Assembly: GCF_016584665.1 (NCBI RefSeq)
Contig: NZ_BBJB01000023.1
Coordinates: 1 to 64,000 of the forward strand
From: Pseudanabaena sp. lw0831
Lineage (GTDB): Bacteria; Cyanobacteriota; Cyanobacteriia; Pseudanabaenales; Pseudanabaenaceae
Direction: 5' to 3'
DNA: 64,000 bases
Shown one piece after another: positions 46,517 to 50,281 of the stretch. The notes beneath the pieces were generated by a model that saw nothing but the letters and a program-made list of their open reading frames with translations, did no database searches and was not told the origin of the DNA. Every line of letters begins with the position of its first letter. The first letter of the stretch is position 1. The position numbers and the translations under genes are program-made.

Positions 46517-46652
46517 ATTTATATCATCGATCGCCTGTGATGACAGTCACCACTATGTCAACTTAGATCGAACACAATTAAAGTAGGAGTGAAGCATAGG
46601 ATCTCATAATTGCAACTCATTTTAATCCTTTTTTGTGGAAATCCTTAGGTCT

Positions 46653-47645
46653 ATGAAAACACAACAATTCTCAGACAAGGAAAATCTTAGCCTTGAGCAG
46701 GGTGCTACTCGTGAAGAGATAGAAAAGCCAAAGCTAGATCCCGAACTGCTCAAGCAATTGCATAGTCTGGATCAGCATCCTCAACGCTTGCCGATCTTCA
46801 TTGCTTTGTACTTAGCAGCAGCGTTTGCTTTGTATGGATTGGTACAGGCGATCGCTACACCTTGGGTGTACATTCTCTGCTTACCTTTGTATCTATTAGC
46901 AGCAGCCTCTCTACATGGGATTAGTCTGTTCACCCATGAAGGAGTGCATGGGGTACTGAGTCGTAATTATCAGTGGAATCGATGGCTGAGTATTTTTTGT
47001 GCATTACCCGTTGGGCAAAACTTCTCGGCATACAAAGTGTTACATCTTAAGCACCACAAGCACTTAGGTATAGAAGGTGATCCTGATCATTACAAGAACT
47101 ACACCAAATGGAACTGGCTAACATTTTTTATGCATTGGGGTAGATTGATCATTGGTTATCCTGTTTACATTATTGCGATTCCGATCCTTGGGTTTTGGCA
47201 GGGAAATAAATCTGAACGAGTATGGATTGCGATCGAAGTAGCCTTGCTTGGCTTATTAGTTACGGCGGTGCTGCGATCGCCTATTCCCACAGCATTCTTA
47301 ATTCATGGTTGGTTGATTCCGATGCTTTGGATTAATACAATGGTCAATATTCGCGGGATGAGTCAGCATACATTGCTCGAACATGAGGCAGATTTAGTTC
47401 GCGGAACCCGCACGATTTTGACGATTCCTTTAGTGAGATTTTTTATGTGTAATGAAAATTATCATTTAGAGCATCATCTTTATCCCGCCGTACCTTGGTA
47501 TCATCTACCACGTCTCCATCAAGAGCTAAAGTCAGATCTTGTTCAACAGGGAGCACCATACATTCCTTCTTATTTTTCTTTTGTACAAGACTTTATCGCC
47601 GCCAGCTTGCAGCGTCAGCCCGTCGGTACTGTGGTGATTAATTGA
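46653..47645 (+). CDS. Fatty acid desaturase-like membrane enzyme
   Basis: The 330-residue product is a membrane diiron desaturase/hydroxylase. Histidine boxes are HEGVHG (about 95-100), HLKHHKH (131-137) and NYHLEHHLYP (near 276-285). Four or more membrane segments are present. The frame also opens at GTG 46635, but ATG 46653 has AGG upstream. It is the first of four tightly packed genes and overlaps the next open frame. Substrate could be a fatty acyl chain, a carotenoid or another lipid. Confidence 0.85.
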   Translation: MKTQQFSDKENLSLEQGATREEIEKPKLDPELLKQLHSLDQHPQRLPIFIALYLAAAFALYGLVQAIATPWVYILCLPLYLLAAASLHGISLFTHEGVHGVLSRNYQWNRWLSIFCALPVGQNFSAYKVLHLKHHKHLGIEGDPDHYKNYTKWNWLTFFMHWGRLIIGYPVYIIAIPILGFWQGNKSERVWIAIEVALLGLLVTAVLRSPIPTAFLIHGWLIPMLWINTMVNIRGMSQHTLLEHEADLVRGTRTILTIPLVRFFMCNENYHLEHHLYPAVPWYHLPRLHQELKSDLVQQGAPYIPSYFSFVQDFIAASLQRQPVGTVVIN

Positions 47646-47659
47646 CGCAGGAAATCAAT

Positions 47660-48394
47660 ATGCAAACTTTAATCGGAAAACCGATCGCTAATCCGAGAAT
47701 CCAGCAATATCCTGAATTGGCTCTCGAAGATTTAGGCGAGTTACCATCTCTGCAATCAGCCGTATTGTGGATCGCAGAAGTTTATGACTTTAATAAGCAT
47801 CCCTATATGCTCTGGATGGAAGAGCCCACAACCGATCGCAATTCTTTTCGGCGCAGCCAACTTCCATTCCGTTTTGCCGTTGAGTCTTTCTCTCAGCCAT
47901 TAGCTGCGGTGTTAGCCCGAACTGAGACTCTAGAGACACGCTTGCCATTACTAGCAAATATTACGGAAGAGCATGGTCATGGCGATCGCTGGCGATCGCA
48001 CAAATACACTTTTCAGCAGTACCTTCGTGCTTTGGGAGCAACTGAATGCGAACTCAATTCACCTTGTACTATGCCAGTATTGGCGTTTAATCAATCGATT
48101 TTGACCTATTGCCTAATGCAGTCAGGAGAATCGGGAGCAGCGATGCTCGGCATGATCGAATATCTCTATGTTGGGATCAGTGCCGCGATCGCCAGAACTT
48201 TCCATCAACGTGGCTGGACATCTGTGGGTAGTCAGTCACACTATGCATTCCATGAAAAGATGGATACTGAACATGCGAGAGACTTGCTGTTATTAGCAGA
48301 AGCAGGTTGGGAAGATCCGCGTTCTCGTCGGCAAGTATTGCAAGGATTAATGCTTGGCGCTCACTATTTCTGGAGTTTATATCGTGATTTGTAA
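47660..48394 (+). CDS. Heme-oxygenase-like diiron oxidase (iron-containing redox enzyme)
   Basis: This 244-residue protein fits the heme-oxygenase-like diiron oxidase (HDO) group, which includes UndA decarboxylases and related oxidases. Likely iron ligands are in NITEEHGHGDRWRSH and FHEKMDTEHARDLLLLAEAG, with an intermediate Glu in LGMIEYLYVG. AGGA lies 7 bases before ATG 47660; a TTG at 47642 is less likely. It overlaps the DUF3419 gene at its end. The reaction is unknown; oxidative N-modification, cleavage or decarboxylation of an amino-acid- or fatty-acid-derived substrate are possible. Confidence 0.75.
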   Translation: MQTLIGKPIANPRIQQYPELALEDLGELPSLQSAVLWIAEVYDFNKHPYMLWMEEPTTDRNSFRRSQLPFRFAVESFSQPLAAVLARTETLETRLPLLANITEEHGHGDRWRSHKYTFQQYLRALGATECELNSPCTMPVLAFNQSILTYCLMQSGESGAAMLGMIEYLYVGISAAIARTFHQRGWTSVGSQSHYAFHEKMDTEHARDLLLLAEAGWEDPRSRRQVLQGLMLGAHYFWSLYRDL

Positions 48395-49481
48395 CTCCAG
48401 TTTGGCAATCACCTCAGAAATAGCCTTCTCGCAAGTGCGCGAAGATCCTCGGATTGAATTGCGTGTAATCCAAGAGTTAGCCAAGCGTCAGCAAAACCCG
48501 CTAAGGGTGCTTTTGGTGGCTTCAGGTGGTTGCACCGCCTTAAGTTTGCTGTCACATCCTGCGATCGCTAAAATCGAGGCGGTAGATCTTAATCCCGCCC
48601 AACTACATCTCGTCGAACTACGTCGCCAAGCCTTACTGCATTTATCTTTGGATGATCAATTGCAATTAATTGGCGTAGATAAATCCGCAAGTGATCGCGA
48701 TCGGCTCAGTCTCTATGCCAGCTTCAGTTCAAATTTACCTGCGAGTACAAAAGCCTTTTGGGATGCAAGACTGGAACAGATTGAGTTTGGCGTTAATCAA
48801 GTCGGACGCTTTGAACAACTATTTCGTCAACTTGCAGAAAAGTTTGCCCAGATTGGAATCGAACCTTTGCAAGAACAGTTAATGGCAGTTCAACATCCGC
48901 AATGGCGTGATATTTTTGAGCAGGTATTTGAGCGCGATCGACTCATCCAAGCCTTTGGCGAAGCTGCCGTTAACTACTCGATGGATCGCAGCTTTGGCGA
49001 GCATTTTGCCGATGTATTTGCTCAAGCTTTACAGCGCTTTATCCCCAATCAGAATTATTTTTTAACTCAAGTCTGGGGCGATCGCTATACGTCAAATCTC
49101 ACAGGAGAGGGAGTTCCTCTTTATCTCCAAGCATCCGCCCAAAATGATATTCGCACATTAGGAACAGAGCGATTACAGCTACATCAGGGCGCTTTTGTTG
49201 ATTGCCTTCAGAAACTCGCCAAAACAGAAAAATTCGACCTGATTCAGTTTTCTAATATCTCAGACTGGATGCCTCTAAGCAATCTACATCAAATGCTAAA
49301 CGAGATAGTCAACTGCCTAAGTTCGGGCGGCGCGATCATCGGGCGGAGACTCAATGGCGACCATAATTTAGCAGCTATCATGTCCGAGCATATTACGATT
49401 GATCGCTCACTTAGTCAGGAATTGCTAGCTAGCGATCGCTCTTTTTTCTATCGTGAAGTTGTTGTAGGATTTCGGTCATGA
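48384..49481 (+). CDS. DUF3419-family protein, BtaA-like aminocarboxypropyltransferase candidate
   Basis: This 365-residue protein belongs to DUF3419, the family of BtaA, which transfers the 3-amino-3-carboxypropyl group of SAM to diacylglycerol in betaine-lipid synthesis. The SAM-binding loop is RVLLVASGGCTALSLLSHP, then IEAVDLNPAQLHLVELR, and the family's C-terminal FDLIQFSNISDWM follows. I start at GTG 48384, with GGAG 9 bases upstream and an 11-bp overlap with the previous gene. No BtaB-like N-methyltransferase lies next to it, so betaine lipid is not the obvious product. Confidence 0.75.
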   Translation: MICNSSLAITSEIAFSQVREDPRIELRVIQELAKRQQNPLRVLLVASGGCTALSLLSHPAIAKIEAVDLNPAQLHLVELRRQALLHLSLDDQLQLIGVDKSASDRDRLSLYASFSSNLPASTKAFWDARLEQIEFGVNQVGRFEQLFRQLAEKFAQIGIEPLQEQLMAVQHPQWRDIFEQVFERDRLIQAFGEAAVNYSMDRSFGEHFADVFAQALQRFIPNQNYFLTQVWGDRYTSNLTGEGVPLYLQASAQNDIRTLGTERLQLHQGAFVDCLQKLAKTEKFDLIQFSNISDWMPLSNLHQMLNEIVNCLSSGGAIIGRRLNGDHNLAAIMSEHITIDRSLSQELLASDRSFFYREVVVGFRS

Positions 49482-50281
49482 AGTTCCATCGTATTGAGTT
49501 CGCAGAACGTTCTCTATTTCAAGCTGGAATTGAGGCAATCGAACAAACTGCTTTCTATCCATTAGGAAATGATTTCTTTCAACTCGATCATGGTGATAAT
49601 TACTTTGCCTTTTTTGATCGTCTCGGCGCTGTAAGTTACTTTGTTGCCCTAGATGGCGATCGCGTGGCAGCCGTTGGTGCAGGAATATTGAGACAAGTGC
49701 CTTACCGTCAGGATCAACCAGCATGTTTAGCTTGGTATCTCTGCGATTTAAAAGTCCATCCCGACTATCAGCGGCAACATCTTTCGATGAGGATTTTGCA
49801 TCATGCTTTACCAGCTTGTATAGGAGAATGCGATCGCGGTTATGCAATATCGATGAATGCAGGTGATGGTAAACCTAATCGTCTTGTACGTGTTTACGAG
49901 AAGTTTAATCTGGTGCGGTTTCGCTGCTCGTCTATATTGGGGATCTATAGTGTAGATGCGGAAGTAATGCGATCGCTAGAACCGATACTCATTAAATATC
50001 GCGGTAACATCTCTTATCTCTCTCTAAAAGGCATTAAAGATTTAAAACTAAAAAGTAATGGAGAAATGTTGCCATTACTGCATGTACAGTGGGGTGATCG
50101 CCTGCCAGCCGAGATTTCGGCTCCCGTCGCTGGATATACCCATATGTTCTGTGTGCCTAGAGGTGATGACTTAGCGATCGCCCTTGCCAATCAGAATGTA
50201 TTTCCTAATGCGATCGCTAGTTTGGTCAGTCATGGCATGGATGAAAGTGATTGGCGATTTATTCTAACTAGCGATATTTGA
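49478..50281 (+). CDS. GNAT-family acyltransferase
   Basis: The 267-residue product has a GNAT acetyl-CoA motif (LCDLKVHPDYQRQHLSMRIL) and a C-terminal extension of 110 residues (MLPLLHVQWGDRLP, HMFCVPRGDDLAIALA). Its ATG overlaps the previous stop by 4 bp, so it is the last gene of the four-gene operon. It may acylate an amino group made by the DUF3419 enzyme. A hairpin follows at 50280-50316. Confidence 0.78.
   Translation: MKFHRIEFAERSLFQAGIEAIEQTAFYPLGNDFFQLDHGDNYFAFFDRLGAVSYFVALDGDRVAAVGAGILRQVPYRQDQPACLAWYLCDLKVHPDYQRQHLSMRILHHALPACIGECDRGYAISMNAGDGKPNRLVRVYEKFNLVRFRCSSILGIYSVDAEVMRSLEPILIKYRGNISYLSLKGIKDLKLKSNGEMLPLLHVQWGDRLPAEISAPVAGYTHMFCVPRGDDLAIALANQNVFPNAIASLVSHGMDESDWRFILTSDI

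Follow-up and report, generated by a model that had tools for sequence, protein, structure and literature searches.

A conserved cyanobacterial gene cassette joining a DUF3419 enzyme to a heme-oxygenase-like oxidase, and its proposed biosynthetic role

Gene layout of the cassette

The window analysed here, i.e., the whole 64,000-nucleotide stretch formed by positions 1 to 64,000 of contig NZ_BBJB01000023.1 of Pseudanabaena sp. lw0831, carries a cassette of four genes that run head-to-tail on the forward strand at 46653-50281 and encode, in this order, a membrane desaturase/hydroxylase-like protein (DES), a heme-oxygenase-like dimetal oxidase (HDO), a DUF3419 enzyme that would use S-adenosylmethionine (SAM), and a GNAT-fold acyltransferase-like protein (GNAT). 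An initial annotation had described these genes as packed together, with the last two junctions overlapping by 11 and 4 bp, and the open reading frames (ORFs) are indeed so arranged (Table 1). The Pfam scores of DES, HDO and DUF3419 are all well above cut-off (28 bits for DUF3419), and that of GNAT is borderline (20.5 bits, with the cut-off at 20.7). The source genome, 5.26 Mb in 118 contigs, has only one DUF3419 gene. Upstream of the cassettes, no common NtcA, Pho or Fur-like site was found.

Table 1. Genes of the cassette, with start codons and the basis of each assignment
Feature	Position	Strand	Length (aa)	Start codon	Basis
DES, membrane desaturase/hydroxylase-like	46653..47645	+	330	ATG; in-frame GTG also present at 46635	FA_desaturase 135 bits; three His boxes; dN/dS
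HDO, heme-oxygenase-like dimetal oxidase	47660..48394	+	244	ATG, conserved in homologues, AGGA ahead; alternative TTG possible at 47642	Haem_oxygenas_2 64 bits; fold; invariant ligand candidates
DUF3419 SAM enzyme, candidate 3-amino-3-carboxypropyl transferase placed outside the BtaA branch	48384..49481	+	365	GTG	DUF3419 138 bits; motifs; tree
GNAT-fold acyltransferase-like protein	49478..50281	+	267	ATG	Predicted fold; signature; borderline Pfam score

Linkage, distribution and selection

Relatives of the cassette were sought by scanning for sequence patterns in a collection of 84,980 species, each represented by a single genome; since the patterns were short and matched exactly, the scan detects close relatives only. 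It returned 17 loci, every one of them cyanobacterial, with Pseudanabaena strains as the closest relatives. When the window genes were mapped onto these loci and onto two further genomes of the phylum, the order DES-HDO-DUF3419-GNAT was found to be kept in 14 complete loci besides the window, in carriers that include Pseudanabaena, Leptolyngbya, Symplocastrum, Scytonematopsis and Calothrix, among others. The loci with fewer genes stop at a contig edge, with the sole exception of one Pseudanabaena metagenome-assembled genome (L028). The immediate flanks, on the other hand, represent at least nine different contexts, and clustering of all ORFs within 7 kb revealed no further gene common to most loci. 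Thus, with the order constant in the 14 complete loci while the neighbours vary, the association of the four genes is far beyond chance. The initial annotation had proposed that co-occurrence of the four families be mapped, and had allowed that they might prove unlinked elsewhere; what the mapping revealed is a conserved, selected operon whose order holds across these neighbourhoods. All four genes are under purifying selection, as the ratio of nonsynonymous to synonymous substitution rates (dN/dS) against three relatives was 0.065-0.166 for each of them, and 0.065-0.08 for DES.

The operon is sparsely distributed. Of 386 genomes sampled from the phylum, three have a DUF3419 of the close clade; the same three have GNAT, and HDO is present in these and, as an orphan copy, in one more (G062). 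Such an orphan cassette-type HDO (349 bits; L075:8618-9355) lies downstream of a large kinase, in a genome without a close DUF3419 or GNAT. In a cassette-free Pseudanabaena (G344), the genes downstream of the glyceraldehyde-3-phosphate dehydrogenase gene differ, and in L028 a deletion took the first two genes and the start of DUF3419, which documents that the pathway can be lost; the junction (L028:6840-7020) has short inverted GGCACTGGTCAG...CTGACCAGTGCC ends, resembling those of an insertion sequence or a miniature inverted-repeat transposable element. The best reading of this pattern is that the operon is mobile between genomes or frequently lost.

Elsewhere in the phylum, DUF3419 loci had no HDO, GNAT or DES nearby, except for one 14-bit GNAT match. 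A second DUF3419 cluster was observed, in which DUF3419 occurs with an AMP-binding ligase and a GNAT-like protein of 296 aa (L049:2095-7059, L052, L054, L055, L080), and at several loci with a membrane kinase-like protein as well. This cluster is conserved from cyanobacteria to other lineages within the phylum, and also on a plasmid of Roseinatronobacter, and looks like another undescribed DUF3419 pathway.

A relative beyond the cyanobacteria was retrieved by a tblastn search of plasmids with DUF3419, namely on the Mycobacterium riyadhense plasmid NZ_OY970457, where DUF3419, an ‘iron-containing redox enzyme’, GNAT and an MMPL-family transporter stand in one run. All three mycobacterial enzymes match profiles of their cyanobacterial cassette counterparts, DUF3419 with 85 bits, HDO with 149 and GNAT with 49. 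Since this trio has no desaturase beside it, the system is better seen as a DUF3419-HDO-GNAT core, to which DES is an added step found only in cyanobacteria among the sequences searched. The set of four that had been annotated initially therefore stands as a conserved operon, but is better described as three genes plus one. Near the trio, the same plasmid region (L084:1-30001) also encodes a very large adenylation-domain protein, PE/PPE proteins and, in tandem, three tyrosine recombinases, and it contains a group II intron. On Streptomyces linear plasmids, the same HDO subfamily directly follows an EF-hand protein (L085:14292-15678; L086:14292-15690), at loci that have no annotated DUF3419 or GNAT; the subfamily is thus not exclusive to the trio. 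Scans of viral contigs for HDO and GNAT found no relative.

Predicted properties of the four proteins

The HDO model (mean predicted local distance difference test score, pLDDT, of 82.7) matched the fold of CADD (1rcw) with a Z of 23.0 over 208 residues, followed by HrmI (Z 20.6 over 222 residues, root-mean-square deviation, rmsd, of 3.4), BesC (17.7) and UndA (16.8); by its predicted structure, the protein has the heme-oxygenase fold of the HDO superfamily. CADD was also the closest solved protein by sequence (E of 1e-6 to 2e-9). The ligands H198-x3-D202-x2-H205 and E167 are clear from the sequence, and those of the first helix are ambiguous, the glutamate being E103 or E104 and the histidine H114 (or H105). 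We propose a 3His/3carboxylate set made up of E103 or E104, H114 (or H105), E167, H198, D202 and H205, the candidates being invariant in the cyanobacterial, mycobacterial and Streptomyces homologues. The substrates of known HDOs are mostly amino acids or fatty acids (PMC13108848). An HDO within a small tailoring operon is also seen in mangotoxin biosynthesis (MboA) and other natural-product clusters (PMC13185094), although Mbo has ATP-grasp ligases and a redox partner, and the cassette has none.

DUF3419 is the Pfam family of BtaA, a known aminocarboxypropyl transferase (PMC10491745), and the cassette enzyme keeps the glycine-rich ASGGCT motif (SAM), D(L)N, ED and the C-terminal D..S..Y motif of that family. 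For comparison, a Sinorhizobium plasmid (L083) encodes a DUF3419 protein that scores 382 bits with PF11899, as against 138 for the window protein, and has a methyltransferase directly downstream, i.e., the BtaA-BtaB arrangement; the two DUF3419 proteins share 24.7% identity. In the tree, the cassette enzymes, L043 and the mycobacterial protein were split from the L083 BtaA and 18 others with support of 100/99. This is a strong hint that the cassette enzyme lies outside the BtaA branch, short of proof because the mycobacterial and BtaA branches are long, and it goes against the BtaA-like label of the initial annotation. The grouping with the mycobacterial protein, away from the BtaA that stands beside BtaB, weakens a betaine-lipid reading; in the cassette, DUF3419 is linked to HDO and GNAT instead of BtaB.

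DES is, by its His boxes (H95EGVH, H131LKHH and H271LEHH, invariant in 13 aligned orthologues) and its FA_desaturase domain, a member of the membrane di-iron desaturase/hydroxylase superfamily, but it falls far below the cut-off of every curated subfamily. Its best NCBIfam match was GntB, the FA_desaturase-family arginine hydroxylase of guanitoxin (NF041365), at 74.6 bits against a cut-off of 380, and it scored 40.7 bits with the beta-carotene hydroxylase CrtR (NF045688), for which the cut-off is 475; the genome has its own CrtR elsewhere (L121, 478 bits). Both assignments were accordingly rejected. In a tree with the paralogues of the genome and GntB-like proteins, DES formed its own clade with one relative (G197), separate from GntB yet on the GntB/CrtR side of the family, and apart from the paralogues that match DesA-type models. 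This tree places DES outside the acyl-lipid desaturase branches, and does not favour its earlier interpretation as a desaturase of a chain. The G197 protein, its nearest relative outside the cassettes, has as its neighbours a GH3-type ligase and a 243-aa protein of unknown kind (L142:4237-7696), which hint at small-molecule chemistry but do not prove it. Matches to DES on plasmids were MocD/MocE-type Rhizobium genes, and RtxC was not among them.

The GNAT model had a pLDDT of 77.8, the five models varying widely, and it aligned at a VIA Z of about 12-13 with N-myristoyltransferases as well as with GNATs of the short, tandem and long types; thus, the model gives the protein a GNAT fold, but its subfamily cannot be told. 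The signature YPLGxDxF..HGxxYxxFF and a conserved C-terminal end are both shared by the mycobacterial protein (YPLG-D-F-I-HG-Y-FF). The CoA loop consensus, Q/R-x-x-G-x-G/A, is replaced by Q98-R-Q-H-L-S in the window protein and R-R-G-L-T-P in Mycobacterium, and with these glycines missing, an acyl carrier protein-bound acyl group or another donor is possible. Sequence searches of the PDB with DES, DUF3419 and GNAT found no clear relative of any of the three.

Proposed pathway, alternatives and significance

We propose that the cassette is a self-contained biosynthetic operon whose product is an oxidised and N-acylated metabolite with an aminocarboxypropyl unit derived from SAM, a proposal that we consider about as apt to be right as wrong. 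DUF3419 would transfer the 3-amino-3-carboxypropyl group of SAM to an acceptor, giving a homoserine-type adduct as the backbone of a small metabolite; HDO would oxidise this metabolite or its acceptor with O2 and two metal ions; in cyanobacteria, DES would add a second oxidation as a membrane di-iron hydroxylase or desaturase; and GNAT would afterwards acylate the amino group. In Mycobacterium, an MMPL exporter adjoins the core. What the sequences show directly is the content, order and conservation of the genes, the selection on them, the families to which they belong, and where the trees place DUF3419 and DES; from the protein families, we infer the transfer, the oxidations, the acylation, the order of the steps and the nature of the substrate. 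As product class, a non-proteinogenic amino acid or a small amphiphile is slightly favoured over a bulk membrane lipid. It is a more tentative suggestion, with the balance tipped somewhat against it, that cyanobacteria and mycobacteria share an undescribed class of natural-product pathway, in which a DUF3419 enzyme other than BtaA passes aminocarboxypropyl from SAM to a small HDO-oxidised acceptor, to yield a new amino-acid antimetabolite or lipid, e.g., an oxyvinylglycine or an aminooxy compound. Several points weigh against the proposed operon function. Aminocarboxypropyl transfer is assigned to DUF3419 only through BtaA, a distant relative; the long branches of the tree may have produced its split in part as an artefact; GNAT, lacking the usual CoA-loop glycines, may be no acetyltransferase at all; and the mycobacterial MMPL neighbour and the membrane protein DES would suit a lipid equally well.

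It is unlikely, if well short of far-fetched, that the product is a modified membrane lipid, in which DUF3419 adds homoserine to a glycerolipid in the manner of BtaA, GNAT N-acylates it as in ornithine-lipid-type synthesis, and HDO and DES introduce oxidations or double bonds into the acyl chains. Membership of DUF3419 in the BtaA family and of DES in the FA_desaturase family would fit such a product, as would the transporter next to the mycobacterial trio, since MMPL transporters often export lipids. However, DUF3419 lies outside the branch of the BtaA with an adjacent BtaB, DES is placed near CrtR/GntB-type proteins and not with the DesA-type paralogues of the genome, and the cassette has neither an acyl-handling gene nor BtaB, whose absence next to the locus the initial annotation had correctly noted. 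The cassettes also share no upstream Pho box, which lipid remodelling under phosphate starvation might show. Improbable, in our view, is an oxyvinylglycine or aminooxy antimetabolite, an idea drawn by analogy with RtxC of rhizobitoxine, in which DUF3419 would join an HDO-made alcohol or N-hydroxy acceptor to aminocarboxypropyl, DES would form the vinyl ether, and GNAT would mask the amine. BtaA chemistry does yield homoserine ethers, some HDOs are N-oxygenases, with HrmI being among the closest folds, and one of the many GNATs to which the GNAT model aligns at a similar level is the tabtoxin-resistance acetyltransferase (Z 13.2 over 154 residues, rmsd 3.4). We know of no HDO in the rhizobitoxine pathway. 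The last step of that pathway is carried out by the desaturase RtxC, and the same logic would apply to a desaturase-type enzyme with a homoserine ether as its substrate (PMC6304460), but RtxA is not a DUF3419 enzyme; both this distinction and the comparison of DES with RtxC are by description, not by sequence. Moreover, the mycobacterial set lacks an adjacent desaturase, and every link in the idea is an analogy.

Marginally more improbable still is that DUF3419 is not a transferase of this kind, but either a methyltransferase or an enzyme that cyclises SAM to an amino acid with an azetidine or cyclopropane ring, with the rest of the operon tailoring the product. Its clade is far from BtaA and SAM-cyclising enzymes do exist (PMC10491745), but no known SAM cyclase could be linked to it by sequence, and the SAM and C-terminal motifs of the DUF3419 family are kept. 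Finally, HDO could be a p-aminobenzoate synthase that, like CADD, is self-sacrificing, the operon serving folate or an aminobenzoate product. CADD, its best solved relative, uses Tyr27 as the sacrificial residue and Lys152 as the amine donor (PMC11965152), and like the CADD/NePabS synthases, HDO has the fold, a proposed 3His/3carboxylate pattern and, as invariant Tyr49, the sacrificial-tyrosine position. Lys152, however, aligns to Ile177, and this position is not Lys in any aligned homologue, which makes the reaction of CADD itself unlikely for HDO; the score with the CADD-type model TIGR04305 was 24.4 bits against a cut-off of 200, and the gene neighbourhood is a different one, with no folate genes. 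CADD-type synthesis was rejected for the missing lysine, and we regard it as very improbable indeed.

The initial annotation recognised no known pathway that uses these four genes together, and none turned up in our literature search, which ran mostly outside subscription journals and gave no description of the set; the titles and abstracts of papers mentioning DUF3419 offered no setting like the cassette. The cassette thus consists of known enzyme families in a combination for which no described product was found. Apart from BtaA, the DUF3419 family still has no known function, and reactions have been established for no more than about a dozen HDOs (PMC13108848). With three to four genes, the operon is minimal and small enough to be expressed whole, and would tie both families to a product; its carriers are culturable cyanobacteria and a Mycobacterium plasmid, so that one pathway would join two very distant phyla.

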